Source: a virus
DNA length: 30,474 bases
Reading direction: 5' to 3' (one strand)
Virus record (IMG/VR): IMGVR_UViG_3300020417_002407
Location: 1-30,474 of that record
In this document: positions 12,385 to 28,948 of the stretch, piece by piece
Layout: every line of letters starts with the position of its first letter
Position numbering within the stretch: position 1 is the stretch's first letter
The notes under the pieces: model-generated
Databases searched by the model: none
What the model was told of the DNA's origin: nothing
The model's input: the letters and a program-made list of their open reading frames with translations, nothing else
Made by a program: the position numbers and the translations under genes

Positions 12385-13950
12385 TTAAAATTCCAGGATA
12401 ATTTTAATGTCTTCTTTTTGTCTAATGTCTCTAGAAACTAAGGATCTGTTATCAATATAAACTACATCTCCTGTTCTTTTATTTATCTCTGGTAGAGAAA
12501 CCCCAGAATTAAAAGTGACGCTCAAATCAATTCTTTTATTGTCCACATCAACGACACTCCCATTAAAACCAGTATCAATGGTTGTCGTTGAACTACTACC
12601 GCCACCACCATCGATAGTTACAGTATTTGCTCCTCCAAATTCGAAAAATTTGGCCTGCGTTGCAACTGCATTGTGATCTTCTTGATCATTAACACCTGGT
12701 TTAAAATATAAAGATCTGTCTCTAAAGTACTTTAAAACGCCAGTAGTGCTATCATAAGATGCTACATATCCTCTTGCTGTTCCATTAACACCATTTACAG
12801 TTACGGGTTGCGTTATTGAGTCTCCTGGAGAAGGAGATCCAGTATATCCACTAGTCAATTTAAGAGCATGTAGTCCAGAAAATGTTGGGTTTGACCAATA
12901 TTCTTCTGTATATCCACTGTTTGCGGAATATGTTTCTGGATCTTTTATAATTGCTATTTGTGCAAATTTAGTATCAAGTGGAAAATCTTTCGTCGAATCA
13001 TCAAAACGTGCATAAATTAAAACTCTATCTGCAGAAAGTTCCTTGTAAATATCATATCCATGCCCTCTCGATGGAGGTATAATTGGGATTAACTTTGCCG
13101 GATCTAATATTGTACCACTCCTCTTCAAATCCACAATTCCATAGGTATATCCATAACCACCATCAACTATACTAGCACCCGTTATTTTTGTATTTGTCGT
13201 TGTTATTTGTACTTTAGCTCCTTGACCATCTCCTAGAATGTCATATAATCCATCAGAATATCCAGATCCACCATCTTCAATATATACTGTTCTAATTTGA
13301 TTGGGATTAGTTGATGAATTATTACCATAATTTCTTACACTCGCATAATCACTATTTGTTTTCCAATCATTGGGGAGAACAATATATTCAGTAGAATCAA
13401 ATTTTAAAATATCACTAGGAGAGATTGAAAAGAGATATTTCCACTTGTATCCATCTCCACTAGACCCAGTAATTAATTCATTCCCTCTACCAATGGGTTC
13501 ATCTTGAGATTTTTCTCCACCAGGTTTTGTACCCGAAGATCCATTTTCAATACAAATATAAACATCATAATTACTATTCATCACATAGTAATTAGAATCT
13601 CTAAGTGTTGGACTATTGGTAATTTGAGAAGGACTTGATATACTATAATCATGTCTATACATATCATAGTTTGTATTTGACTTCCAAGTGATTTTTCTAA
13701 TCACTCTTCTAGCATCAGTGGTTGACACCCTTTTTCCAAAAAGAATACTATCCCTATAATGAGACAAATACTGCAGATTATCTGTCGGATTTGGTGTATT
13801 AGCATCCCACCCATTTACTCTGCCGAATTTTGTGGTTGCAGAGTCGGGATTAGCCAACCCTAAGACAACATAATAGTTGCTAGAAGAAACACTATTTACA
13901 AAATTATCAGCATTCGATATTCTAAACTGATCTGTTATGACAGCGGCCAT
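12385..13950 (-). CDS. 8: Baseplate wedge protein gp8
   Basis: gp8 is a dimeric component of the baseplate wedge, binding gp7, gp10 and gp6 in T4. The family is recognised from AVITDQFRISNADNFVNS at the start, GDGYKWKYLFSISPSD at 165-180 (T4: GDGYVWEYLFEIPP), TEYIVLPNDW at 187-196, and the end DVVYIDNRSLVSRDIRQKED, which parallels the T4 gp8 C-terminus. At 521 aa it is much longer than T4 gp8 (334 aa). Part of the extra sequence is two GxGY-type units with Gly-Tyr at 230 and 267 (DGGSGYSDGLYDI, DGGYGYTYGIVDL), and a Gly/Ser-rich loop lies near residue 455. It has an exact late promoter 20 bases upstream; the next gene starts 6 bases after its stop. Confidence 0.93.
   Translation of the reverse strand: MAAVITDQFRISNADNFVNSVSSSNYYVVLGLANPDSATTKFGRVNGWDANTPNPTDNLQYLSHYRDSILFGKRVSTTDARRVIRKITWKSNTNYDMYRHDYSISSPSQITNSPTLRDSNYYVMNSNYDVYICIENGSSGTKPGGEKSQDEPIGRGNELITGSSGDGYKWKYLFSISPSDILKFDSTEYIVLPNDWKTNSDYASVRNYGNNSSTNPNQIRTVYIEDGGSGYSDGLYDILGDGQGAKVQITTTNTKITGASIVDGGYGYTYGIVDLKRSGTILDPAKLIPIIPPSRGHGYDIYKELSADRVLIYARFDDSTKDFPLDTKFAQIAIIKDPETYSANSGYTEEYWSNPTFSGLHALKLTSGYTGSPSPGDSITQPVTVNGVNGTARGYVASYDSTTGVLKYFRDRSLYFKPGVNDQEDHNAVATQAKFFEFGGANTVTIDGGGGSSSTTTIDTGFNGSVVDVDNKRIDLSVTFNSGVSLPEINKRTGDVVYIDNRSLVSRDIRQKEDIKIILEF
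13141..13278 (-). repeat. Two GxGY repeat units inside gp8
   Basis: Residues about 225-270 of gp8 contain two units with Gly-Tyr 37 residues apart, each preceded by Asp-Gly-Gly and followed by short hydrophobic strands; the intervening GDGQGAKVQITTTNTKITGA has the 'G.GA.....' strand seen between the units in gp14. They lie within the region by which this gp8 exceeds the T4 protein. Confidence 0.75.
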
Positions 13951-13970: not shown

Positions 13971-13978
13971 TATTTATA
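13971..13978 (-). promoter_or_regulatory. T4-type late promoter (TATAAATA) for gp8, containing the upstream stop codon
   Basis: Reading the minus strand, GTATAAATATCT: the TAA stop of the 3884-aa gene (bases 13974-13976) lies inside an exact TATAAATA late octamer. The octamer ends 20 bases before the gp8 ATG at 13950, leaving a leader of roughly a dozen bases with only a weak AGAAAG as a possible ribosome binding site. Confidence 0.82.
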
Positions 13979-16900
13979 CGTCAATAGCACCAGTTGCTCT
14001 AATTCCCAAACTTCTTCTTTGAATAATTGGGAATGTAGCCAATCCTACAGTATCGCCAAGATCATATCCTGAAATATCAATTGAGATTGGATTAGAACTT
14101 CTTGTAATTGATGGAACACCAATAATTCTTCCGTAAGACATATATCCAACAGGATTATTTACAGTTCCTGTAGTATCAATTCCACTCTCTGAAGCAGAAA
14201 TACTACACTTGACAGTAACTTCTTGATGAATTGAATCATATGTACCTATATTATGAATTTCGTAAATATTATCAATACAAGTACTTCCTACTGATATAGT
14301 ATTTGGAGTTCCAGCATCATCTACAGAAGTTGTTATGTCCCCAACAGTGGTATTGGAAACATATACAGGTATACCGGTCACCAATCCATCATATTCATCC
14401 TGTGAACATTTTATTCTGAAATCAATAGCGGGCTGAGCATTATAATTGGAACTTGCGATTTCCAAAATTTCATTTGTAAATCCAACGGCCGATGTAATTC
14501 CACTAATAATTTCATATTCTGGACTTGGGTCCGAAGTTTCATTTGCATAAGTATTGTCTACTGGTTTTGATACAATAATCGCAGAACATTGATTTCCTGC
14601 AAGATCATCATTGAATAATCTTGCATCATCAACATAAATTTCAGTACTTCCAGTACCAATGCTACGAATAATATGTGCAGTTGGATATATCTGAGGTTCT
14701 ATAGTTTCTCTAGACTTATAGACAATTTCTCCATTAACCTTGGAATCAGATTTTTGTTTTGTCCACACAACACCTTTGAATGTGTCATCCTCAGTATCTT
14801 CTTCAATACCCACTCCATTATACAGATTTGTTTCAACCTTATCGGAAAAACTAATATCATAGATTACTCTACTATCTTGATCAACAGAATTAGTATCTGA
14901 TGGATTCTTAAGAAGTTTTACACTATCTCCACGTTTTAGAGTATTAAATATTTCCTCTTGATTAGTATCGGATGAGGAAACTCCTCTATAGAAATAGATC
15001 GCAACATTATCTTCGGGTTTTGGTGCATCAGTAAAGATGAAAGAAGTTCCTCCCGCAAACTGATAAGATTCTCCTGGTTTTTGAAGAATTCCATTGATAA
15101 AAATTAAGAAACTATTTTGTAAAATTAATTGGGAATCTGCTTGACGTTCAAAACTAAGTCTTTCTCCATTATAGAATAATGGGAATCTTCTTCTAGTTCC
15201 ATTCTGATAATCTTTTATGGAATCAATATAATCCATTTCTCCAAACTCCCAAGATGCAAAAGAGTCTGTATATGTTCTTACAATAGAAATTTCAAATTCA
15301 TTATCTGGAGATGATAGTCCAAATCCAGTTACTAAACCAACCGGGCGTACAATATCTCCAGGTTTATAGTCATAACCCTTCGAATTGATTTCAAAATTAG
15401 ATACATGGAATAGTGTCGTTCCTGCACCAGCTGGTCCAACTTCTAAATTAACTGTCATTCCAGATCCCAACCCAGCTAAAGCATTTGAATCTACATCTCT
15501 TCTGAATACCAATTCTACGGGAAGATTTTGATATGATGGTGGTTCTATAATAGCAACTGGATTTGAATAATTGTTGCCACCAGTAATTGAGATATTTCCA
15601 ATACCTCCACCAGAAGTTAGGGAAGTAATAGTCAATTGACCACCAGAACCAGGCCCATCAGCATCTTCAATCCTTGCAGTCGGAATATTATAGTATCCGG
15701 ATCCAGGTTCTACAACATCGAAGGCATCAATAACTCCAGTATTTGGATCAGTTACACTCAATTCAATAACTGCTGGTACCAATGGAGCAAATCCCAGGCC
15801 TGATGTAGATCCGAATGAAACTGGAATTCCACCTCTTGGAAGACTATTTGCATTAACATCAGATTCATTAATAGAATTGATTCCACTAAATGTTATTGTA
15901 GTAATTCCTGGTAATGGAGAAGTTTCTTCCGTTATAACATAATTTCCTGTAGGATTATTCTGAGTAGATGGGTCTTGGAATATACTATTTACAAATACTA
16001 ATCCTTGACCACCATCTGTTCCCAACCCTGATGTATTCAGACCACTTCTAGTCAGCGTGAATGTTTTTCCAATGCCAGTAAAATCCTCAGAAATTGAATC
16101 GTATATTTTATTTGAAGTATAATTGGATTTCAAGAATACTCTTCCATCGAAAGATGATGTTGGGAAATTAAGATATCCATCTGTTCTTTCGATGGAACTA
16201 TTGCCTCTTGGAGGATCAGTAAAGTGAATTTTCTCCCCTACGATGTTATAAGAACCCTTATAAATGTAAACAATATCTCCAGATGAATGAGTTTCTGTTG
16301 ATGTTCCAATATATGATCTATCTACTTGAACTAATGCAGTAGTTCCAATACCCGTAATAGGGCCACCCGAAGATTCTCCATAACCTACGTCAATAACATT
16401 CATATATTCATCACCAACTTTTAAAATATCTCTATTTTGAACAGAAGAAATTCCACTAAGAGCAAAAATAGTATCTGCAATAGAAACATTATTAGTGAGT
16501 TGATGTGATATTCTTGTATATACTGGTGGGTACTGAACTAATCCATCAATTGTAATCAGTACTTTTTCATTTTTCTTAGCCATTTCAAATCCATGAATAT
16601 CACCAACACCATATCCATCCGATTGATGGAAAGTGATTCCAACCCCTGCTATTGCATTTGATTCAGTAAGTGCAAGTTTAAATTTATCTTCATTTACTTT
16701 TATAGCATAAACTGTAGAACTCAAAGTGGTTCCATCAGAAACTTTCATATCCACTGCATTTGCACCAAGATTTGATCCTGAGGTGTATATCAATTCTTCA
16801 CCAGATCTAAACCGATGTGATCCAATAGTAAATATTCCTGTAGTCTTATCTAATACCGATGATGGATTAAATATCTTCTTAAAGATAAGTTCTCCATCAT

Positions 16901-19900
16901 GGGTAAGATTAAATTCAGTTTTATTAAATCTACCCCCATTTGGCGAATCATAGAATTTATTTTCCACACTTTCGACCAAAGAATCAATCACCAAATCTTG
17001 AGTATCGATTCCATTTATATCAGAGTAGAAAATTTGATGGAAACCTTTGACAGAATATGAATCAGTACTTTCAGGATGGAATTTGAGAATTAAATTAGTT
17101 GGTCCTAAAGTTACGCTAAAGGTACCCAATCCAGTAAATCCACTATTAAGTTCATCATCCAAATCATCAATATCAGCCATCATGATGGGAGTTTGCTGAA
17201 TATATGCATTATTGGTGTCGTGTACCATCATGATTTGATGGAGAGATCTCTTATTTCCCTGCTCAACAACTACATATGATTTTAGTGCATTGAATGTGCC
17301 ATTATTCTTGGTTAATATGTTCTTAAAAGAATCTGTTGATGGTGCCTGATAAGAAGTTTCATAAAGAGCACTTCTTTCATTTCCATCCAATTGATCAGAA
17401 TTGACTTTAAATCTGTGTATGGACGTAGAGGTTCCTGTACCAAATTCCAATGTTTTGGTCTTAATGGACAGATTTCTAGATTCGGTGTTATTAATATCTA
17501 ATGATAATGTTCCAGAATCATAATTTCCACTTATAGTTGCTAGTTCAACTTGGGAGTAAGATCCAGTAGTAGTATCAGTATCCATATAATAATCGGAAAT
17601 AAATGCTGTATTTCCGATTCCAGTTGCATAAACTTCAATATAATTTTTCTCATCAGTGTCTTCATCAATAACTTGAACCATGGTAAATAATGATTCACAG
17701 TTTTCTGAAGATACAATAGTTGTAGATGCAGAAGAAACATTTGAAGTTACAAATCCAACAATGTTTGTATGACCAACATTAAATGTGGCAATTCCAGAAA
17801 ATGAAGGTAAGAACTTACTAGTAATCAATTTAATATCATAATTAGTATTATATGGGTCAGTTGGCCTAAATCTCAGGAAAGATTCTCCCAAAACGTTTTT
17901 CTCAATTTCAAATGTTCCAAAACGTTCTGATCCACTATGATAGTCTAAAGTGGATGCATTACTGATATTTCCTTTTTCCAAGATAACTTTATCATCATTT
18001 TGTCTGAGAATGTTCATCTCAGTCATTTGAATTTGTTGACCATCACCATCTTTAATGACAATAAGTAAATTGTCAAAATAATTTAGATCATCAAGTTTAT
18101 ATAAAGAAGAATATTCATTTACCTGTGATTCCACATTAGAGAACTTGTCAGACAAATCATCAATATCAAGCACCTCATTGCCAACACACTGAATATATGA
18201 TGAAAGCTTCAGATTCTTAAATTTCAAAAACTTGGATGATTCGGTTCCATTAGTTTCAATATCTTTTGCATAATCAACATTGTAAATAGAATCAACCCTT
18301 AAGTCATTAATCAAATTCATCGTCAACGATGATTCATCTACCGATCTAAGAGATAATCCAGCACCAACTTGAGCGGAAATAACCTCAGTGTCTGCAAAGT
18401 TCTTTAAACCACTAATATGAACAATATTATTAATAGGAGATTCTATGTCTTTATATTCTATAGGACTCTTAACAGAATATGATAAATTCTGATAATAATC
18501 ATTATCGGGCAAATATTGTCCACTATTATTGAGTTCTCCAGTATTGTCCGACCACCCTCTGTCAACCAATCTGGAAGAAGAAACATTTATACGGGAGAAG
18601 TTAGTATCAACTTTATAAACTGATGCAACAGATCCAGAGCTAGATCCAACCAAGATATCACCAACATTTGGGTTATATTGTCCAGTAATTCTCAAGATAT
18701 TTTCATTTGAAGAAACCACAAATGCGTCCAGATCATCTGTAGATGATTGGAGGTTGAGTTTTTCTCCAACATTGAATTCTGTCTTCTCAACAGAAATATC
18801 AAATTCTGGATAATCATCTTTTAGAATAATTGTGCCAAAAGAATCTTGAATTGTATTTGCAATACCAGTGTTCGTAGAAATATTATCCGTTTCAAGATCT
18901 ATTGTTACAGTATCACCAAAAACACTTCCTGCAATTTGGTAGTTTGAAACTTTGAAGAATTTAAAACCATAATCTTCAGAATTAAATCCAGAACCTGCTG
19001 TTCCTACTTTTGTAATTCCTTCAATAAAGACTTCTTGGCCAATGGCAAATGGATTTGTAGAAAATCCATTCAGTGGTGTTGTAATTATGCATGTAAATAT
19101 TCCTGTCGAATTTGAATCAACTCTAACAATACTTATTCCATTCGTATTATTAGTTGCGAATAGTTTTGCTCCTTCATCTGGAACTCCATTTGGATTTTGG
19201 AGAACATTTACTTCAGAAATTGAATTGCCGCCCAGTTTTGCTTCCAATAATCCATCATTGATTTTTAATCCAGTGCTTGTATCTACAATAACAATGTTTG
19301 GAATTTCAACATATCCCCTTCCGCCATTTGTAACAGAAACAATACCGACCGTATTATTATCAATTAAAGTAAGTGACTGTACTGATTTTCCTGTTGGAGA
19401 TAATGTCTCATCAGAAGGATACTCATTCTGACTAAGAATGAATTCATATTCTTTAACATTACCTATGACATCTGATTTTGGAATGACAGATAATCCACTA
19501 CCATTAGATGTTATAGTATCTACGTATGCAGGTAAAGATTTATACCCGATACCACCTGAAGTCAGTTTTACTTTGTGTACAGGACCCGATGCATTTTTAT
19601 TAGTAGTTCTATATTCTAAAGTATTGCATTGATCCTTTAGATATGAATTTCTTTCAGGCCTTCTATTGAGAGAGAATGTAAAAGTTGTTGATCCAATGCT
19701 AGATATGGAATAATTTTTGTTATATTCACTAGATTCAAATACTATTTGTGAATTATTTTTAGATTCCTTATCCGCTGTGCTTATTTGGCCACCATTCTCC
19801 AAATTATAGAAAATTACTGGTGGAAGATCCTTATCAAATTTTATTGTCTTTGTATTTGATGTTGAGGAGATTATATGTGTATTTGTAGTTCCCGTAGATA

Positions 19901-22900
19901 CAAACTCTCTATTAAATTCGGAATCGTAGAAAAACTTTAACTCATAGTTGCCCAGAGATGATGTATCAAATACAATATCATTACTATTGATAACTTTAAT
20001 CTGTGGATTAATTAATAATAATTTGTGACCAGATCCATCATTCGTAATATTTACTTTATTCGTATCAATATTAGATAATCCATTGATTGATTCGCAAAGA
20101 ATTATTTTATTAGAATCTTGAACATATATGAAATAAGATTCACCATCAGTTAATCCAGTAGCTGCTGATGTAGCTTTGTAGAGTACTCTATCTCCGGTTG
20201 TATATCCATGAGAATTAATTGTTATGGTATCATTGTCATTATTAATATCGCCAGGTGCAAATTCCAATGGGTTGATGGTCAACAATCCAGTCTGAGAATC
20301 TCTTTCAACTTTAATTGATGTTGATGTTCCAATACCAACAGAAAGATTTGAATCGACAAAAATTTCCACAGAATCTCCTTCACTCAAATTATGATCTTCT
20401 TCTGTAGTAACTGTAGTTGTTATTTTTTCGACCAAGCATTTCTTTTGATTGAACTTAGTTTCGAACAAATATTCATCAGAATCTAAACCAGAAGTATGGA
20501 AAAATACCTGATCACCCGAAATTGTTGTCTTAATACCAATATGATTTGAATTAATGTTAATTACATATACAGTATTGGGCATATCATAAGAATTTGTTCC
20601 ATCTGTAGAAACAGAAACTCCAGTACCAACATAATTAAGTTCTTGATTAGTCCTGAATGGATGATTTCTTAAATATATTGATTGTGTTGGGATAGAAAGC
20701 GATACATTACGTGATGCATAATCAAACGTAGTTTGATATTGTTCTCCGGGAATAGTTCCAATTCCAATAGATTCTGTTGGATTAAAATATACTTGTTGAT
20801 TCTGAGTGGAGTCAATAATATTCTTTACATTAGCTTTAATAGTAAATGAATCATTTACAAATGATATTGTACTACCTATAGAAATCTCTGGAGTAGTAGA
20901 CCTGCCTACTCTCAAAATATTTTCTGGTCTTGCAATATCTAATAATGTATAATAATCTGTACCAATAAGAACACTACTGCCAACACTTACATTTTCTGGT
21001 ATAGATGACACATATAATTCTGTAGTTCCAATTCCGGCAGCTATAGAAGATAATGCAACAGAATTTGGGGTAGTATCAATAGAAATTTTCCCAACTACAG
21101 AATCCTGTCCAAAAACTGTACTTAGTCCAGATAAAATTACATTGTCTCCTGATCTCAAACTTAAAATATTATTTGGATAAATTCTAAGATTTGATGAATT
21201 TTCTTTGACAATTAGACTATCAACATATGAATTTACTACTGTTTCCATTTTAGAAACAGTTTCTCCTTTAATAACTTCTACAGAAGCACTAATACCACCA
21301 CCAGATGTATCCTCATTATCAAATCGAAGAAGATCTCCAACTTTATAATTGTCACCATTATTAATAATTTCAAAAGATTTAACAGATCCACTAGTTACTG
21401 AAGAAACTTTTATGCCATCATTATTATAATCACCAATTTTTGTTAGGAAATCATAGCTCCCTTCTCTCGAAAATACTTTATATGGGAAACTATTTCTCAA
21501 AAGTTTATTTGATGCAAGATCATATGATTGATTCAATAATCTATTCTCAGAAATGAACTTGGATTCATAAGTATTTCCAATAAAATATGGGAATATTGGA
21601 TCTCCAGATGTTGATACTAAAGCAAAATATGCATATACTCCATTTGGAAATTCTGGTGTTTTTGTAAATCTACCATTATTTTTATCTAAAGTGCCATTTT
21701 GTGGTTGATACTCAAAATCTTCAAAGAAGAATCCAGATTCAAATCCAGAAGGTCTATCAATAATGTTACTACTTTGATTTACATAACCAGAAGACATTAA
21801 TACTTTATCAGAAGTTGAATCCATTGGATCAACAAAACCATATGGCCCATAAATTGGATTCCCATCATATGCCCATCCAATAATTGGAGAATGTTTTGGA
21901 TTTGGATCAACTGTAGAACTTTCACCAAAAGAATCTCTTATTTTTTGATTATAACCTAAAACTTTGTACTGTAGTCCATTATCAGTATCAGCAAATATTT
22001 CATTCCCAAATCTCAAATTATTATTTACTGTTAGTTCTCTTATAGAAGATTCGAGGACAACATTTTCTCCTGAAGCCTCTACTTTTATAGTAGTATTAAA
22101 TGGGTCATATCCAATACCACCATTAATAACTTTTGCTCCGGTTATGATTCCATTAGAAACAATGGCTCTAAGTTTAGCTCCAGATCCACTTCCAGTAGAA
22201 TCTACTGCACTTAATTTTGGAGTTGAGAAATATTCTTCTCCACCAAATCCAATATTGATTGATTTTATTATACCATTAGTAATATTTGCAGATAATTCAG
22301 CATTTTTTCCATTTTTTATCGCTATTGTGGGAGTTTTCTTCAAATTTAATATTGAAGATCCATACGAAGTTCCATTTTCGTAAATATAACAATCAATAAT
22401 GCTTCCACTTACCTCCGGAGTAACGATAAGGTTGCCTTGACCATTAGGAGATTCGTATGATACATTTACTTGAATGTCTGGATATTTGAAATATTGGTAT
22501 CCAGACCCAATAGACGTAAAACTAACATATTTTGACAATTCAAAATCTGTAGTATCCGTTCCCCCAACTCCAGCATTAGATAATCTAAAATAGTCCTTCG
22601 AATCAGCAGTCACATAATATTGATTAGTGGTATTTAATCCAGTAATTCCTGCAGTTTCATATGAATACTCAATAAGTTCTCCAGTTTTAAATCCATGATT
22701 TTCAAATGCAATAGTATTTTCCGTTAAAGATACATTTGATGGTTTTATTATCAACCTTCTATTAGTATAATTTTCTCCCCCAGATATTACTACAATATCA
22801 CTTATATTTCTTTTGAATTCTGCAGTTTTAAAATACTGAGTTCCTACAGATGCACTTGTAATATCGACCGTTCCAATACCAGAAATTGCTTCTGACGAAG

Positions 22901-25628
22901 AAAAATGAAGAGTAATTGAATTATTGTTAACATACCTCGCAAAATAATTTCCATTACTTGCCAATGTTGTAGATCCAGTACTAATCAAATTATTTGATTG
23001 GGGTTGATAAATTATTTCTTCCCCGGTAGTTAAATTGTGAGGTTCATCAAAAGTTACTACATTAGTAGTAATATTAATTCCTCCACCTGCAGTAGAGTCT
23101 TCAGAACTGAAAGATAATTCTCTGTGCCTATTTGCAAGTACTGCTTCAAAAGATGCCCCTTGCCCATTTCCCCCCGATACGGATATTGAGCTAACGGAAT
23201 CAATATCAAAATCTTGAGGGTCTACAAAAACGTCTGTAAAAGAACCTGAAATAACAGGTTGTACTTTACAAGTTGTTCCTGCACTAGCACTTACCTCCAA
23301 TTGTGGTGGATTTATTACGTCAAAATCATTTGTACTACTTAAAACTTCAATACTTTCTATTGGTCCAAAGTAAATCTTATCGTTCGACTTATAGTTTGAA
23401 ATTTCAACACCATTGATCAAAATTCCTGTCGATTCATTAGCATAAGTAGAATCTTTTTCTCTACTATCAATACTTCTTTGTAAGTTATTTTTGAGTGGAA
23501 ATTTTCTTAAAATATTTGTTGGTGATATCTTTCTCGATCTCTGACTGTATAAAGTGAAATCGTGCGATCCAAAATCTTGGGTATTTGGAGTAAATATCAA
23601 ATAATTTGAAGAACCAATAGTTTGTCTAGAAGAATAGAGTTTAATAGTTTTCTTTAAAGAATCTATTACTTCAACATAATAAGAGCCTGTTGATAGTCCA
23701 ACTAATCCCGAACCACTATACTCATAATAAACTTCATCACCTGTTATAAATTCCGAAGGAGTTGCAAATTTTATAACATTATACGTTCCCCTTTGAATAA
23801 CACCATCTGTACCAATTCCAGATATGCTAACTATGTTTTTAGATACCAATTCTTTATCGATATTATAACGATAAGTAAATGTAGTATTCGCTATCTCTCC
23901 AGAAGGTAAAGAATTTGATGCAACATATGCATATTCATCATCACCATCAACATAGAGATTTTGAATATCTGATAAAATATTCGTATATTCTAATGGTACT
24001 GTATTACTAATTGGATGATTTAACTTTCTTCTTAGTTTATACTCATCGAAGTTGCCAGTTTGAAAAGATCCAGAAAGGGTTGGTCTTTTATTATCAAAAC
24101 TTATACTTTGAATATAAACATCATCGGAAGTAATAGCTAAAACTTCCGACCCAATTCCAGATCTTTCTACTAATTCTACTCTATCCCCTACTTTGAAACT
24201 AGACCTATCAATCGTTCCCGACAAAGTATAGTTTGATAATATTTCTACATCATTAGAACTTGCACTGTTGTATATCCAAGAATTTGCAAATAAATTTTTA
24301 TAATTGGTTTTATCAATTGAAATATTATCACCAATACCTTTAATAGTAACTCTATCTCCAACACTGCTTAAACTTTTAATTTCGGAAGTTTCTACATCTG
24401 ATGTTACATTAGATACTCTAAGAAGAACTTTTGTTTCTTCAGATATTACTCCATTTTCATATCCAAAATATGTATTTGAAGAAACAACTAGATTTGTTTT
24501 TTTACTAAACTTTGTGATGTCAGAGGAATCAACAAAAAATTGATTTAAGTTCTTACTAGTGTAAGAAACTTGCATGGTTCCATTTGAATCATCCGGGTCA
24601 ATAATAGAAATTACTCCAGACTCTGGAAATCCAACTGTAGAATCAACGGTAATTAATGAGTCCCCAACATTAATACTTTCTATAATTTTTGTCGAAGATG
24701 TTGGCTCAAACGTTCCATTAATAGGATTGTCATTGCCATATCCAGTAAATAATGATAATCTATAATATTTTTTGCCTTGAATAGAAATTATTTCAATATC
24801 CGAAATTGAAGCATTTGTTTCCAAGTCTGATGACTTGTAAATTGTTTCTCCTTTTAATTTGAGTGGATTTTTTTGGTTAAGACACTCTGCTAAAGTTACT
24901 TCATTCCTATTAAATTTTGCATAAGATGGCTTTATCAGAAGATTTTCAAGATTAACTATAGTTGGGTCAATACCAAAAAGAACATTAAACAAAATTCTAT
25001 AGGATTCTTCTGTACCTTTAGACTGATATAAAGACTTTGAATACTTTAAAAATGTTCCTACATTAACTTCTTTGGAGAAACTAACTCCTTGAAGTCCTGG
25101 AGCAATTGAATATTTTACCTTATTATAAAATTCTTTTAAGAACAATGAACTGAGATTTTCAATTTTTGTTCCTGAAGGATGTGATGATGCATTGGAAGAT
25201 AAGAATACCAGTTCCTCTGGATTATCTTGGTCATGTAATTCAGAAACACCACTAAATCCGCGAATACATCCAGTAAAAGATGTTGCGGTTAATCCAGTAT
25301 ATGTGACTATCTCTTCACCAATTTTGATTAGGCCATATTTTTTAGGAAAACCTTTCGTATTTGAAACGAAAATATTTGTATCTGTGTCACTTATTTGTGC
25401 TGAGAGAGAAGATTCATCAACAATTACTTCAGAAACAAGATTATCTAGATCTAGATACTGATCTAGATTTTCTACAATATCAACAGAAGCACCTTGATTT
25501 TCTTGTGAAATATAATACTGCTTCAAAAACTCCGCAGTTTTTGGACTTTCATCCAAAATAAATTCAGGAAGTTGATTTTCAATAACTTCCTGAATCTGAA
25601 CTCTTTGTTCAAAGCCTGTCTGTATCAT
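13974..25628 (-). CDS. 3884-aa giant baseplate/virion structural protein in the gp7 position
   Basis: A single uninterrupted frame of 11.7 kb between gp6 and gp8, where T4 has gene 7 (wedge initiator, 1032 aa). The N-terminal 70 residues are helical and acidic (VIENQLPEFILDESPKTAEF, LKQYYISQENQG), in the style of cyanophage baseplate proteins. Then follow a KIGEEIVTYTG...RGFSG...H unit (102-132), six loose ~75-aa 'H..(F/L)..G(E/D).(I/V).Y...YYV' repeats, about ten GxGY-type repeats, a YHYH-like domain near 1240-1350, a pair of similar beta modules near 2520-2600 and 2765-2860, and a second KIG-type unit near 3065-3118. Large cyanophage proteins in this slot have been annotated as VrlC-like or structural. 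It starts one base after the gp6 stop (TAGAATG). A wedge role is inferred from position; host contact by the repeats is possible. Confidence 0.85.
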   Translation of the reverse strand: MIQTGFEQRVQIQEVIENQLPEFILDESPKTAEFLKQYYISQENQGASVDIVENLDQYLDLDNLVSEVIVDESSLSAQISDTDTNIFVSNTKGFPKKYGLIKIGEEIVTYTGLTATSFTGCIRGFSGVSELHDQDNPEELVFLSSNASSHPSGTKIENLSSLFLKEFYNKVKYSIAPGLQGVSFSKEVNVGTFLKYSKSLYQSKGTEESYRILFNVLFGIDPTIVNLENLLIKPSYAKFNRNEVTLAECLNQKNPLKLKGETIYKSSDLETNASISDIEIISIQGKKYYRLSLFTGYGNDNPINGTFEPTSSTKIIESINVGDSLITVDSTVGFPESGVISIIDPDDSNGTMQVSYTSKNLNQFFVDSSDITKFSKKTNLVVSSNTYFGYENGVISEETKVLLRVSNVTSDVETSEIKSLSSVGDRVTIKGIGDNISIDKTNYKNLFANSWIYNSASSNDVEILSNYTLSGTIDRSSFKVGDRVELVERSGIGSEVLAITSDDVYIQSISFDNKRPTLSGSFQTGNFDEYKLRRKLNHPISNTVPLEYTNILSDIQNLYVDGDDEYAYVASNSLPSGEIANTTFTYRYNIDKELVSKNIVSISGIGTDGVIQRGTYNVIKFATPSEFITGDEVYYEYSGSGLVGLSTGSYYVEVIDSLKKTIKLYSSRQTIGSSNYLIFTPNTQDFGSHDFTLYSQRSRKISPTNILRKFPLKNNLQRSIDSREKDSTYANESTGILINGVEISNYKSNDKIYFGPIESIEVLSSTNDFDVINPPQLEVSASAGTTCKVQPVISGSFTDVFVDPQDFDIDSVSSISVSGGNGQGASFEAVLANRHRELSFSSEDSTAGGGINITTNVVTFDEPHNLTTGEEIIYQPQSNNLISTGSTTLASNGNYFARYVNNNSITLHFSSSEAISGIGTVDITSASVGTQYFKTAEFKRNISDIVVISGGENYTNRRLIIKPSNVSLTENTIAFENHGFKTGELIEYSYETAGITGLNTTNQYYVTADSKDYFRLSNAGVGGTDTTDFELSKYVSFTSIGSGYQYFKYPDIQVNVSYESPNGQGNLIVTPEVSGSIIDCYIYENGTSYGSSILNLKKTPTIAIKNGKNAELSANITNGIIKSINIGFGGEEYFSTPKLSAVDSTGSGSGAKLRAIVSNGIITGAKVINGGIGYDPFNTTIKVEASGENVVLESSIRELTVNNNLRFGNEIFADTDNGLQYKVLGYNQKIRDSFGESSTVDPNPKHSPIIGWAYDGNPIYGPYGFVDPMDSTSDKVLMSSGYVNQSSNIIDRPSGFESGFFFEDFEYQPQNGTLDKNNGRFTKTPEFPNGVYAYFALVSTSGDPIFPYFIGNTYESKFISENRLLNQSYDLASNKLLRNSFPYKVFSREGSYDFLTKIGDYNNDGIKVSSVTSGSVKSFEIINNGDNYKVGDLLRFDNEDTSGGGISASVEVIKGETVSKMETVVNSYVDSLIVKENSSNLRIYPNNILSLRSGDNVILSGLSTVFGQDSVVGKISIDTTPNSVALSSIAAGIGTTELYVSSIPENVSVGSSVLIGTDYYTLLDIARPENILRVGRSTTPEISIGSTISFVNDSFTIKANVKNIIDSTQNQQVYFNPTESIGIGTIPGEQYQTTFDYASRNVSLSIPTQSIYLRNHPFRTNQELNYVGTGVSVSTDGTNSYDMPNTVYVININSNHIGIKTTISGDQVFFHTSGLDSDEYLFETKFNQKKCLVEKITTTVTTEEDHNLSEGDSVEIFVDSNLSVGIGTSTSIKVERDSQTGLLTINPLEFAPGDINNDNDTITINSHGYTTGDRVLYKATSAATGLTDGESYFIYVQDSNKIILCESINGLSNIDTNKVNITNDGSGHKLLLINPQIKVINSNDIVFDTSSLGNYELKFFYDSEFNREFVSTGTTNTHIISSTSNTKTIKFDKDLPPVIFYNLENGGQISTADKESKNNSQIVFESSEYNKNYSISSIGSTTFTFSLNRRPERNSYLKDQCNTLEYRTTNKNASGPVHKVKLTSGGIGYKSLPAYVDTITSNGSGLSVIPKSDVIGNVKEYEFILSQNEYPSDETLSPTGKSVQSLTLIDNNTVGIVSVTNGGRGYVEIPNIVIVDTSTGLKINDGLLEAKLGGNSISEVNVLQNPNGVPDEGAKLFATNNTNGISIVRVDSNSTGIFTCIITTPLNGFSTNPFAIGQEVFIEGITKVGTAGSGFNSEDYGFKFFKVSNYQIAGSVFGDTVTIDLETDNISTNTGIANTIQDSFGTIILKDDYPEFDISVEKTEFNVGEKLNLQSSTDDLDAFVVSSNENILRITGQYNPNVGDILVGSSSGSVASVYKVDTNFSRINVSSSRLVDRGWSDNTGELNNSGQYLPDNDYYQNLSYSVKSPIEYKDIESPINNIVHISGLKNFADTEVISAQVGAGLSLRSVDESSLTMNLINDLRVDSIYNVDYAKDIETNGTESSKFLKFKNLKLSSYIQCVGNEVLDIDDLSDKFSNVESQVNEYSSLYKLDDLNYFDNLLIVIKDGDGQQIQMTEMNILRQNDDKVILEKGNISNASTLDYHSGSERFGTFEIEKNVLGESFLRFRPTDPYNTNYDIKLITSKFLPSFSGIATFNVGHTNIVGFVTSNVSSASTTIVSSENCESLFTMVQVIDEDTDEKNYIEVYATGIGNTAFISDYYMDTDTTTGSYSQVELATISGNYDSGTLSLDINNTESRNLSIKTKTLEFGTGTSTSIHRFKVNSDQLDGNERSALYETSYQAPSTDSFKNILTKNNGTFNALKSYVVVEQGNKRSLHQIMMVHDTNNAYIQQTPIMMADIDDLDDELNSGFTGLGTFSVTLGPTNLILKFHPESTDSYSVKGFHQIFYSDINGIDTQDLVIDSLVESVENKFYDSPNGGRFNKTEFNLTHDGELIFKKIFNPSSVLDKTTGIFTIGSHRFRSGEELIYTSGSNLGANAVDMKVSDGTTLSSTVYAIKVNEDKFKLALTESNAIAGVGITFHQSDGYGVGDIHGFEMAKKNEKVLITIDGLVQYPPVYTRISHQLTNNVSIADTIFALSGISSVQNRDILKVGDEYMNVIDVGYGESSGGPITGIGTTALVQVDRSYIGTSTETHSSGDIVYIYKGSYNIVGEKIHFTDPPRGNSSIERTDGYLNFPTSSFDGRVFLKSNYTSNKIYDSISEDFTGIGKTFTLTRSGLNTSGLGTDGGQGLVFVNSIFQDPSTQNNPTGNYVITEETSPLPGITTITFSGINSINESDVNANSLPRGGIPVSFGSTSGLGFAPLVPAVIELSVTDPNTGVIDAFDVVEPGSGYYNIPTARIEDADGPGSGGQLTITSLTSGGGIGNISITGGNNYSNPVAIIEPPSYQNLPVELVFRRDVDSNALAGLGSGMTVNLEVGPAGAGTTLFHVSNFEINSKGYDYKPGDIVRPVGLVTGFGLSSPDNEFEISIVRTYTDSFASWEFGEMDYIDSIKDYQNGTRRRFPLFYNGERLSFERQADSQLILQNSFLIFINGILQKPGESYQFAGGTSFIFTDAPKPEDNVAIYFYRGVSSSDTNQEEIFNTLKRGDSVKLLKNPSDTNSVDQDSRVIYDISFSDKVETNLYNGVGIEEDTEDDTFKGVVWTKQKSDSKVNGEIVYKSRETIEPQIYPTAHIIRSIGTGSTEIYVDDARLFNDDLAGNQCSAIIVSKPVDNTYANETSDPSPEYEIISGITSAVGFTNEILEIASSNYNAQPAIDFRIKCSQDEYDGLVTGIPVYVSNTTVGDITTSVDDAGTPNTISVGSTCIDNIYEIHNIGTYDSIHQEVTVKCSISASESGIDTTGTVNNPVGYMSYGRIIGVPSITRSSNPISIDISGYDLGDTVGLATFPIIQRRSLGIRATGAIDV
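15340..22800 (-). repeat. Dispersed GxGY-type repeat units in the giant protein
   Basis: About ten units of the 'GG.(G/N)Y...P...I' type are scattered through this span, for example GGENYTNRRLIIKP (about 22.77 kb), GGIGYDPFNTTIKVE (22.1 kb), NNGDNYKVGDLLRF (21.35 kb), GGIGYKSLPAYVD (19.55 kb), GGRGYVEIPNIVIVD (19.31 kb), GSGYYNIPTARIED (15.69 kb), GGNNYSNPVAIIEP (15.57 kb) and KGYDYKPGDIVRPVG (15.36 kb). They are protein-level repeats of the same kind as in gp14 and gp8 and are not contiguous. Confidence 0.75.
21570..21910 (-). other. YHYH-like domain inside the giant protein
   Basis: Residues about 1240-1350 read HSPIIGWAYDGNPIYGPYGF, then NNGRFTKTPEFPNGVYAYFA. The WAYDGNPIYGPYG core and the following 'NGR...TPEFP.G.Y.Y' block are the hallmarks of the YHYH protein family (PF14240), whose function is not established. 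The family's namesake Tyr-His-Tyr-His position here reads Tyr-Ala-Tyr-Phe, so both histidines are missing. Recognition is by motif memory; a profile search would settle it. Confidence 0.75.
25443..25468. repeat. Palindromic ATCTAGAT cluster
   Basis: Three copies of the self-complementary octamer ATCTAGAT; the first two overlap to form a perfect 14-bp palindrome (25443-25456), and the third follows four bases later. It lies in codons for the Asp/Leu-rich DQYLDLDNL segment of the giant protein. It could simply reflect coding of that acidic stretch. Confidence 0.6.
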
Positions 25629-25629
25629 T

Positions 25630-27531
25630 CTACTCTCTTATAAGTTTTCCGTTTGAATAACTTGATGTATAATAATTTTTGATAAATTTGGTTCCGGAAA
25701 TTTCATCTCCGGAAGACATTACATCTCTAAGCATATTTATTGTGCTTTTATTAACACTAAACATCAAATAGAGATCCTTCAATCCGATAACATCATTGGA
25801 CTCTGGGAAAGCCTGCACTTCAATAATATTATTCTCTTTAACAGTACTAGTAATATTGACAGTACCTAGATTTATTTCACCTTTTAAGTAATCTATGGTT
25901 CCCGCAGATGTCACAACAACCTTAGCAGTATCAGATCCAGTTGGTTTTACTATTGATAACGTGCCAGTTTTTTTATCTGCATTTGGGACATCAGTCAGAT
26001 AAACCACATCACTTTCTCCGGAAATATAGAATCCGGTAGATTTAATATTATATCCATTTGCTTTAACATGGAATTGGTTACCAAAGCACAATTCATACTG
26101 TGCAAATTGATTGATTGCTGCTTTTAAATCCCTACGTATAATAACTTTAGTAATATTTGATGTGATAGAATTGTCTACCTTATCAATATTATGAAGAATC
26201 TTACTGTATCTAAATCTTCCACCAAACTTATTGATATCAATAGATTGTGAATACTTTTCAAGAGAATTCACTACTCTTGTTCTTAAAGTATCAATATCAC
26301 TTGTCTGCGAATAATCATAATATATTGAAGAATCAATCTCAACATATAGTATTTTGACATCAACAATTTTCTGATTGATACCAGATACAGAGTATTGCTT
26401 CAGTTTCGAAAGAATTAATTCTTTATTAAAATCAGAAACATATGTTCCATTTTTTGGTTTAATACTAATACTTACCGTACCAAACTCTGGAGGATCGAGT
26501 TCTTCACCACCAATTACTGTAACAGTTTCAGTATCAGGATAGATTCTTTTTATAATTGCCTCATAATCCCTAGCCGTAACCGCTCTGTACTGCGATGAAT
26601 ATAGTTGAGGAGCATAATACTTAATTGATTCAATAGACTCAATCTCAGCGCCATTCTGCGATTTTTGATCAAGTGCAACTGAAGTAGTTGTTGCTACAAA
26701 TAAATCACCACTCTTTAAAGTTCCAGTAAAGGAAAATGATCTTGCGCCATTTCCTTCTGGCCCGTCTGTTACAATATATTTTGCACGAATGACTGTACCG
26801 TCATCATTAAACGTCGTTCCTAATTTCTTTCCAAAAAATCCATCACCAAATATGATTTGGTATCTTTCATCCTGAATTTCTTGGATGAAATAAATTCTGG
26901 AATTTTTATCTACATTTAGAATATTACTGACCTGACTATACTCGATTCCAGTTCCAGAAGATCCTTCCTTATTGACATAGACAGAAAGTGTGGACGTATC
27001 TATGAAAGAATTATCTAAAATAAACTTTTGGTTCAGTGAGGAATCATATCTAAATTCTTGATTAATTAATGTTCCTTGATATATGTCAATCTCTTCAAAT
27101 ACTGCTTGACCATTCGTCACAGAAGTTTCTATATCATTCAGAATGGAAAAGACATATGAACTATCATTTATGACACCTACACATACGTTTCCTGCCTTCA
27201 GAGTAACCGATGTGATGTCTGGGTTATCAATTGCTGCCGTGATCGTTACTGTTGCCTTGGCCGCCGATCTGGAGCGAGGTAGATAACCAATATTTTTTGC
27301 GAGTGAGACTACATTCTCTCTTAGTGTGGCCGATTCCAAAAAGGATTCGTTCACAATCATGTTTGAATTGAATGCTGTTATATAAGTGTTATATGCCAGC
27401 GTATCAATTAAAACTGAAAAATTAGACCCCTCAAAGTCAAATCCCGTGAAATTAGAATTTGCACGAAGATAATCTTTGATAGAGGTCTTTATTTGATCAA
27501 AGTCTAGATTTGTATACTTAGTGAAAGGCAT
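25630..27531 (-). CDS. 6: Baseplate wedge protein gp6
   Basis: gp6 forms the continuous dimer ring of the baseplate around the hub, binding gp25, gp53 and gp7 in T4. The 633-aa product compares well with T4 gp6 (660 aa). The N-terminal region has the family pattern: MPFTKYTNLDFDQIKTSIKD, NTYITAFNSNMIVNESFL at 48-65 and RENVVSLAKNIGYLPRSRSA at 71-90, followed by beta-rich sequence and a baseplate-J-like region around YYAPQLYSSQYRAVTARDYE and IIKRIYPDTETVTVIGGEE. It starts one base after the gp25 stop and ends one base before the giant gene. The gp25-gp6 pairing is conserved in T4-like phages and in contractile injection systems. No oddities. Confidence 0.95.
   Translation of the reverse strand: MPFTKYTNLDFDQIKTSIKDYLRANSNFTGFDFEGSNFSVLIDTLAYNTYITAFNSNMIVNESFLESATLRENVVSLAKNIGYLPRSRSAAKATVTITAAIDNPDITSVTLKAGNVCVGVINDSSYVFSILNDIETSVTNGQAVFEEIDIYQGTLINQEFRYDSSLNQKFILDNSFIDTSTLSVYVNKEGSSGTGIEYSQVSNILNVDKNSRIYFIQEIQDERYQIIFGDGFFGKKLGTTFNDDGTVIRAKYIVTDGPEGNGARSFSFTGTLKSGDLFVATTTSVALDQKSQNGAEIESIESIKYYAPQLYSSQYRAVTARDYEAIIKRIYPDTETVTVIGGEELDPPEFGTVSISIKPKNGTYVSDFNKELILSKLKQYSVSGINQKIVDVKILYVEIDSSIYYDYSQTSDIDTLRTRVVNSLEKYSQSIDINKFGGRFRYSKILHNIDKVDNSITSNITKVIIRRDLKAAINQFAQYELCFGNQFHVKANGYNIKSTGFYISGESDVVYLTDVPNADKKTGTLSIVKPTGSDTAKVVVTSAGTIDYLKGEINLGTVNITSTVKENNIIEVQAFPESNDVIGLKDLYLMFSVNKSTINMLRDVMSSGDEISGTKFIKNYYTSSYSNGKLIRE
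25734..25741 (-). promoter_or_regulatory. Possible internal late promoter (AATAAATA) before the giant gene
   Basis: An NATAAATA match on the minus strand inside the 3' end of gp6, 105 bases before the giant gene's ATG. It fits the looser cyanophage late consensus, but chance occurrence in AT-rich coding DNA is quite possible. Confidence 0.3.
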
Positions 27532-27532
27532 T

Positions 27533-27934
27533 TTATCTTGTTGCCTCTAATAGGAAGTTATATTGTTGAGTTGGAAACTCTTGGCCTACAATGTCATAGA
27601 TCACATTTACATCAAATGCATTCAAATCCGGGTATGGATTGACAGTGACCTGAACATTTTCAATTCTCGGTTCAAAATTATCAAGTGCAACAAGAATTTG
27701 ATCTTGAACTACACTCGCCGTACCAAAATCAACTAATTCAAAGAGCAAATTTCGTACATCAGAACCAAAAATTGAATTGAAGAACTTTTCGGAGGGTATG
27801 GTTTCTACAATATTTCTTACAGAACGACGAATTGCATTCTCATTCTTAATAATAGGTAGATCGCCAGTAATTGGATGGGGTTCAAATGACAAACTTATGT
27901 CTTTAAACGCCCTTGATACCCTCTGAATTGCCAT
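27533..27934 (-). CDS. 25: Baseplate wedge protein gp25
   Basis: gp25 is the small sheath-initiating wedge subunit that nucleates sheath assembly on the baseplate; it belongs to the GPW/gp25 family (PF04965) common to contractile tails and type VI secretion. The 133-aa length equals the usual size (T4: 132 aa). Family features seen are PITGDLPIIKNENAIRRSVR at 21-40, IPSEKFF at 46-52, and the C-terminal FEPRIENVQV at 87-96. The gene has an exact late promoter 18 bases upstream and no clear Shine-Dalgarno sequence in its very short leader. gp6 follows one base after its stop, so the two are co-transcribed and probably coupled. Confidence 0.95.
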   Translation of the reverse strand: MAIQRVSRAFKDISLSFEPHPITGDLPIIKNENAIRRSVRNIVETIPSEKFFNSIFGSDVRNLLFELVDFGTASVVQDQILVALDNFEPRIENVQVTVNPYPDLNAFDVNVIYDIVGQEFPTQQYNFLLEATR

Positions 27935-28249: not shown

Positions 28250-28948
28250 CTATTTATTTGGTTCTCCAAAGCGATGAGAGTACTGATCATCAATATCGGC
28301 CATCAATTCTTCGGATGTTTTCCAGAAATATTCATCAGTATCACCCAATCTACCCCACTTAATACCATTTTCAACCTGATAGTACTCAGTCGAAACCTTA
28401 AAATCAGGAATCTTTGGCTCTTCAGGTGTCAAACTAACGTCATAGATGCGACATCTGTTGTTTGGATACAGTGCAAATTGTCCATTATCAAGTTCAAGTA
28501 GGTTAAATGACTTGTGTTCTTCTGGTATTTCACTGGTTGAGTAGTCAATGATGTCACAATCGGCATGATAATTGTCTAGTGTACAAATATAACTACCAGT
28601 CATGGTACCAAAATGACGTGTACGAACCTCCCAACTCATAGAAGCAGTAAATTGCTTACAAATATTAATCACACCATAGTCCATACAGTTCCAAAACTGT
28701 AGGTTTGGTAGATCCATATCTGGATCAGGAGTCTCAGGAGATGATACAAAGGCACTGATAGGTAGTTTATCAAACATTGCCCCATATTCGGGTAGATAGG
28801 TCTCAAAATAGAAAGCACGTCCAGGAATCGATTTTGCCGATACCCAAACGCCCTCTACAAATTCGCCGTGACCATCCTTTAAATCGCGTAAGTACTCTTT
28901 GCGTACCCATACTTTTTGTGCGGGTAGATTAACGACTAATTGACTCAT
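28250..28948 (-). CDS. Conserved cyanophage protein of unknown function, 232 aa
   Basis: A soluble 232-aa protein with no signal peptide or membrane segment. It starts MSQLVVNLPAQKVWVRKEYL followed by RDLKDGHGEFVEGVWVS, and contains PGRAFYFETYLPEYGAMFDK, DLPNLQFWNCMDYGVINICK and an Asp/Glu-rich C-terminal part. From memory, closely similar proteins are conserved in T4-like cyanophages without a known function. Trp and Tyr are frequent, consistent with a compact beta-rich fold. Its ATG overlaps the stop of the 48-aa gene (ATGA), so translation is coupled. It is the first gene after the more G+C-rich right end. No T4 counterpart is evident. Confidence 0.75.
   Translation of the reverse strand: MSQLVVNLPAQKVWVRKEYLRDLKDGHGEFVEGVWVSAKSIPGRAFYFETYLPEYGAMFDKLPISAFVSSPETPDPDMDLPNLQFWNCMDYGVINICKQFTASMSWEVRTRHFGTMTGSYICTLDNYHADCDIIDYSTSEIPEEHKSFNLLELDNGQFALYPNNRCRIYDVSLTPEEPKIPDFKVSTEYYQVENGIKWGRLGDTDEYFWKTSEELMADIDDQYSHRFGEPNK
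28251..28258 (-). promoter_or_regulatory. Possible late promoter (AATAAATA) for the 72-aa gene
   Basis: On the minus strand AATAAATA overlaps the TAG stop of the 232-aa gene (28250-28252), 58 bases before the 72-aa start. It differs from the T4 consensus at one base but fits the cyanophage NATAAATA form. Its placement over a stop codon resembles the gp8 promoter. Confidence 0.5.

Follow-up and report, generated by a model that had tools for sequence, protein, structure and literature searches.

A YHYH-family core without the namesake histidines in a gp7-position baseplate wedge protein

In the window (the whole stretch of viral DNA analysed, 30,474 bases) the baseplate operon encodes, at its gp7 position, a protein that carries the core half of a YHYH domain (PF14240), and the site aligned to the Tyr-His-Tyr-His after which the family is named has no histidine (Table 1). 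The explanation that we favour, and consider fairly probable, is that this is a YHYH-derived wedge module whose presumed metal site was lost and which has been retained for a role in structure or ligand binding. Such a module would have become part of the wedge protein at the gp7 position; the Y-H-x-H pair and a preceding His, putative metal ligands, have, as the alignment shows, been lost in the class to which the window copy belongs; and what is left would now act as a fixed component of the baseplate, in structure or in ligand binding, rather than as a metal enzyme. The sequence-only reading had already suggested that the domain is kept for structure or binding and not for a metal-dependent activity, and that suggestion is supported here. 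The domain matches 462 phage records with cyanophage or marine names, and the copy at the gp7 position is without the predicted ligands.

Table 1. Features discussed in the text, with nucleotide positions in the window and residue numbers (aa) of the gp7-position protein
Feature	Position	Strand	Details
gp8-like baseplate wedge protein	12385..13950	minus	PF09215 E = 1.3e-12; phrog_438
gp7-position baseplate wedge protein	13974..25628	minus	3884 aa; phrog_2885 'baseplate wedge subunit' E = 0
YHYH (PF14240) core half	21621..21911	minus	aa 1240-1336; profile 87-180 of 193; E = 1.3e-23
YAYF, second variable site	21624..21635	minus	aa 1332-1335
Core motif GWAYDGNPIYG	21846..21878	minus	aa 1251-1261; invariant in 81/81 gp7-type rows (partly built in, see text)
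H1246	21891..21893	minus	in K-H-S-P before core; no other His in aa 1151-1381
True namesake position	21957..21968	minus	aa 1221-1224; Tyr-Lys-Val-Leu for Tyr-His-Tyr-His; 3/3 MAFFT modes
gp6-like baseplate wedge protein	25630..27531	minus	PF21379 E = 1.7e-17; phrog_219
gp25	27533-27934		neighbour in baseplate operon

Both profile and gene order place the 3884-residue protein in the cyanophage gp7 class (phrog_2885): its best PHROGs stretch covers residues 2-3320, and gp25, gp6 and gp8 are its neighbours. WAYDGNPIYGPYG and NNGRFTKTPEFPNGVYAYF both lie on the minus strand within this frame. In P-SSM2 the gene order is the same and the equivalent gene is annotated as gp7, the baseplate wedge initiator; the gp7-annotated proteins of P-SSM2 and P-SSM4 likewise occur in the order gp25-gp6-gp7, and in these cyanomyovirus proteins the YHYH match starts at about residue 1230-1390. 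Since T4 Gp7 is, according to PMC7029224, missing from pelagimyophages and cyanomyophages, where it is seemingly replaced by VrlC, "gp7" is used here as a name derived from annotation and gene order. Megablast of positions 20000-24000 against 50,697 phage records returned nothing; at the protein level the domain found matches in 463 of the 50,697 records, with the best place in each below 60% identity, and 462 of these have names that begin with Synechococcus, Cyanophage, Prochlorococcus or Marine. Among cyanomyovirus gp7 proteins, the top-ranked copy in GenBank shares 47.5% identity with the window domain over 99%, and shorter stretches reach up to 53%.

A YHYH-family layout inside a baseplate protein had been proposed from the sequence, and profile searches bear this out. 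The PF14240 match of the full-length protein is highly significant (84.4 bits, against a curated cut-off of 25); a DNA-level search places it at 21618-21911 as the sole PF14240 match in the 30,474-base fragment, and profile-profile comparison by hhalign of 81 gp7-type with 36 canonical copies gave a probability of 100 (E = 6.3e-43 over 107 columns). These matches indicate that the protein carries a real YHYH domain as far as the core half is concerned. Residues 1077-1247 gave no match to the N-terminal half (profile positions 1-86) at E <= 10, a threshold at which HMMER filters discard most very weak matches. Bacterial PF14240 proteins, such as WP_239051980.1 from Deinococcus sp. KNUC1210 and a protein of Kiloniella litopenaei (L150), share with the window the core half, with its motifs GxxxDGxPIY, DYEY, GxLDxxNGR and TPEFPxGxYxY. 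They differ in having the N-terminal half of the profile with its D, H and YHYH, which is unmatched in the window protein, and in being only a few hundred residues long, whereas the window domain sits in a giant structural protein.

The position of the namesake motif was established by cutting a bacterial protein. WP_239051980.1 matches PF14240 over profile positions 2-193; when it is cut directly after YHYH, the first piece maps to positions 2-77 and the second to 78-193. Because the fragment that ends in YHYH maps to 2-77, the namesake motif occupies positions 74-77 of the profile. The PF14240 match in the window begins only at profile position 87-90, i.e. ten or more positions past the motif. 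As the profile itself stops short of the site, it was assigned by MAFFT with intermediate sequences, and the Tyr-Lys-Val-Leu (YKVL) thus identified falls outside the interval 21570-21910 in which the sequence-only reading had placed the domain.

That reading had taken Tyr-Ala-Tyr-Phe (YAYF) to be the altered namesake. YAYF is instead a second variable site, located about 80 residues past the DGxPIY core, where the 48 anchored bacterial copies read YHYH (22), YYYV (9), YAYF (5), YHYY (4), YGYY (3), YRYY (2) and YHYF, YSYF or RAYF (one each). YHYH at this second site is found in bacteria only in the short copies L170-L193 (the 22 mentioned), mostly from Bacteroidota, which have YHYH at both sites; L175 and L179, which have no core anchor and are counted outside the 48, also read YHYH. 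All five bacterial copies with YAYF at the second site keep the upstream YHYH intact, and YAYF, FAYF or FAYY is also what stands there in viral proteins whose upstream motif is intact. YAYF as a decayed form of the namesake was therefore rejected: because it, or something like it, coexists with intact YHYH in both bacterial and viral proteins, it is not a sign of loss. The statement that the histidines are lost thus holds for the true site, where YKVL has none, though not for the motif that was originally pointed to.

The histidines in question are strongly conserved in bacteria. In the numbering of L150 the motif consists of D42, H47 and Y54-H55-Y56-H57. The bacterial anchor set numbered 49, from which one false anchor (L169, position 997) was removed, and in the remaining 48 copies both Y-H-x-H (47 YHYH and one YHHH) and H47 are present without exception. 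A second set was obtained by searching with the Pfam profile 296 genomes of the phylum to which G009, the genome of L165 (a Flavobacteriales), belongs. Matches occurred in 32 genomes, giving 30 loci, of which L309, L327 and L329 had no anchor; one duplicate anchor was dropped, and L325 and L165 are the same gene. In this Bacteroidota set H-x-H is present in all 27 anchored copies (15 YHYH, 10 YHHH, one YHSH and one YHNH), and the third His did not align in four of the 27. Since these three are the histidines conserved in bacteria, they are the likely metal ligands, metal binding being predicted from this co-conservation and in PMC7824862. That paper predicts that the phage YHYH protein is a metal-dependent hydrolase associated with the tail, in which three His and one Asp would form a Zn site. 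We infer that the His triad meant there is H47, H55 and H57.

Among gp7-type copies the pattern is the opposite of that in bacteria. An alignment-free count found H-x-H within up to 130 residues before the core in none of 161 copies (the window, 80 short-type and 80 long-type, the most query-like among the matches listed), these having been collected with probes that cover part of the core, and with the gp7-position gene context checked for part of the loci. Neither was it found in 14 further gp7-type copies chosen from GenBank, or in the 90 residues examined in the copies of P-SSM2, P-SSM4, ACG-2014d and S-RIM14. Long-type copies mostly have YAHL or YAHI at the site (intact in 0 of 80), so that one His of the motif is kept, together with another before the core; short-type copies, the class of the window, mostly have YSVx, YTVx or the like. 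For the short type, a profile of canonical copies left the motif segment unaligned in the window as well as in 72 of the 80 loci. The alignments point to a graded decay from long-type YAHL/YAHI to short-type YSVx/YTVx/YKVL. In the window no conserved His triad is present, H1246 being the single His of residues 1151-1381, with none at the aligned motif. H1246 was considered as a remnant of the ligands and set aside, as 33 of 49 bacterial anchors lack an H-S ahead of the core (it is present in 16, and in 49 of 81 short-type and all 80 long-type copies); it may still matter, because H-S is usual in the Bacteroidota sister branch.

Whether the His pair is always lost in cyanophage copies has a divided answer: it is for the gp7-type copies collected, while some of these phages also encode a separate YHYH protein that retains it. 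Such proteins (AOO13203.1 and AOO14286.1 of S-RIM14, and Syn7803C73_72 of ACG-2014d) are encoded directly after the gp7-position gene and have the same core as the window domain, but those of 573 and 587 residues have near full-length Pfam matches and an intact YHYH, which the window copy does not. Their viral kin, in frames of about 285-1150 residues (some of them cut), have the motif either intact or decayed. In the 25 distinct viral non-gp7 proteins that could be aligned (one fragment was not alignable and is left out of the count), H47 and H57 are both present in six and both absent in 19, and in no case is one found alone; i.e. H47 and the last His of YHYH are present or absent together in 25 of 25, so that the loss is correlated. 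Six of the 19 keep H55, as YHYR. The domain is dispensable as a separate protein: P-SSM2, whose record is complete, matches PF14240 only once, in gp7.

The core is conserved in the gp7-position protein. Over the 81 gp7-type rows, which are 47-61% identical to the window, 27 columns are invariant, some of them with a bias from the probes; the invariance of GWAYDGNPIYG in particular is partly built in, because IGWAYDGN was one of the six probes by which 80 of the 81 rows were collected. In each of the 12 phage records searched, all of them chosen for having a YHYH match, one copy lies within a frame of 3834-9243 residues. Since the core is conserved, the module presumably still does something that needs the fold.

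An AlphaFold2 model of the window domain, built from the 81 gp7-type sequences, had a mean pLDDT of 81.6, and that of the Kiloniella domain 68.1, with values under 50 at residues 1-44 and 46-63. In Foldseek searches of BFVD the window model matched viral proteins, several of them named YHYH, including the 573-residue S-RIM14 YHYH protein A0A1D7SKQ1 (E = 1.1e-9). The 11 matches of the bacterial model at E <= 0.001 all recur among the window model's 14, so that the predicted folds may be alike, bearing in mind that Foldseek scores include sequence and that the bacterial model has low confidence towards its N-terminus. Of the two outcomes that the sequence-only reading had named as refuting it, a lack of any significant PF14240 match and a fold unlike the bacterial one, neither came about. 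Against the PDB, neither Foldseek nor VIA-align found a convincing match for the window model, and searching solved structures by sequence with the domain and both alignments gave only weak matches (best E 1.9 and 0.84). The YKVL site overlaps a predicted strand (model residues 18-23, i.e. 1218-1223 of the protein). Probably, then, the strand that bore YHYH is still present and now reads YKVL, although, because confidence in the bacterial model is low at the motif, the claim that it is the same strand rests on sequence alignment.

One may also consider that the domain in the gp7-position protein works as a metal-dependent hydrolase, carried on the tail and active in breaching the host cell wall, as has been published as a proposal for phage YHYH domains at large. 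This would agree with the Zn site predicted in PMC7824862, where AOO14285.1 is named as an example of the domain, and with the six of 25 distinct viral non-gp7 YHYH proteins in which all three histidines are kept. However, AOO14285.1 (from S-RIM14 isolate Sn_11_0110) is itself the protein after gp6, with the separate YHYH protein on its other side, and none of its 6198 residues form an H-x-H; its site reads EYAHL, and the intact motif (RYHYH) is in the adjoining AOO14286. Given also the absence of H-x-H before the core from all 161 gp7-type copies (again, the most query-like among the matches listed) and the lone His in the window protein, we regard an active hydrolase at this position as very improbable. 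The published prediction may apply to the intact YHYH proteins but is at odds with the gp7-position protein. Some routes to a metal would be conceivable even so: long-type copies may have rebuilt a metal site from the His of YAHL and the one before the core, and a second chain could supply a ligand, or a different metal could be bound by H1246 together with conserved Asp. In the literature on YHYH we found no report of His loss in gp7-type copies, and for any YHYH protein no tested function and no metal-binding experiment; PMC11992049 lists the family in diatoms.

At the other extreme, the domain could be leftover filler that drifts without a role, as the missing namesake motif in the gp7-type copies collected might imply. 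The 27 invariant columns, even with their partial probe bias, speak against this, as does the finding that the N-terminus of the protein and the domain match equal numbers of cyanophage-named records (372 Synechococcus, 61 Cyanophage, 24 Prochlorococcus and 5 Marine), these being counts by name and not a record-by-record identity; drift of this kind is hardly to be expected. A more serious contender, though in our judgement still unlikely, is that D1255, D1304, D1315 and N1318 form a His-independent site that binds either a sugar or a hard cation like calcium, a site which would be family-wide and retained in the baseplate. The DG-P, D, LD and G residues of the core are invariant or nearly so in both the 81 gp7-type and the 36 canonical copies, and it is the histidines that vary in viruses, but the same residues may be conserved for folding only, and the searches of the PDB by sequence and by fold found no solved relative. 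If one goes further, the YHYH domains of marine myophage tails might often be no metal hydrolases at all, with the Asp/Asn core as the working site, retained in the gp7-position protein as a module of the baseplate that binds a receptor or a cation, and the His site as an optional catalytic extra lost repeatedly in viruses; this is speculative, and we consider it doubtful. In the reading preferred here, that of a YHYH-derived wedge module with a role in structure or ligand binding, the domain would have kept its core and lost its presumed site. The site assignment corrects the earlier placement of the motif, and the sequence of AOO14285.1 corrects the example given in PMC7824862. Two questions are separated in this way, namely what the intact YHYH proteins do and what a baseplate protein needs the bare core for.

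In both phylogenetic trees the gp7-type copies form one clade (96/86 in the first, 97/84 in the second), and because they do, a single origin would be the simplest reading. Rows more than 85% alike were dropped beforehand; of the 63 short-type loci kept, 30 entered the first tree together with the window, as did 25 of the 27 long-type loci, and the second contained 14 short-type (including the window) and 10 long-type copies; the false-anchor row (L169, position 997) was present in the first and not in the second, and both were built without the short bacterial copies L170-L193 (excluded by a length filter) and the split third YHYH class. The separate viral proteins and a branch of Bacteroidota and Verrucomicrobiota fall into one group with the gp7-type clade (99/89 and 100/99, respectively). 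A division with all bacteria on one side received 90/75 in the first tree and 28/50 in the second, which held more bacteria. The idea that the domain was taken from the host found no support here: the nearest cellular copies are those of Bacteroidota and Verrucomicrobiota (cyanobacteria were not searched as a group), and the titles of the 49 genome loci from a scan by two peptide patterns name no cyanobacterium.

Several minor observations concern other YHYH proteins. The separate S-RIM14 YHYH protein at L084:31938-33659 has a C-terminal half weakly similar to alpha/beta hydrolases (PF02230, E = 0.0025, below the cut-off). A third cyanophage YHYH protein follows the gp9-type gene (L083:33762-37226, L084:34943-38497 and L085:40346-44677), with PF14240 in two stretches; in L083 it has an insert of about 150 residues, for which neither Pfam at E <= 10 nor a sequence search of the PDB gave a match, and which ends in FSYFCRYHGLMGS, an end that resembles a type I copper loop. 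In an Akkermansiaceae protein (L169:2096-5500) the YHYH domain is joined to a sulfatase (PF00884, E = 1.1e-36). Elsewhere in the window, a mechanical listing of open frames includes one of 139 residues on the plus strand (21964-22383), opposite the gp7-position gene and adjoining the domain, which is probably due to chance, and 28250-28948 encodes a 232-residue protein with a match to phrog_3704 (annotated as ferredoxin). Finally, the gp14-type neck protein (1513-2934) has an extension, at about residues 200-385, that matches baseplate, tail-fibre and other structural PHROGs including phrog_2885, a sign of a common module.
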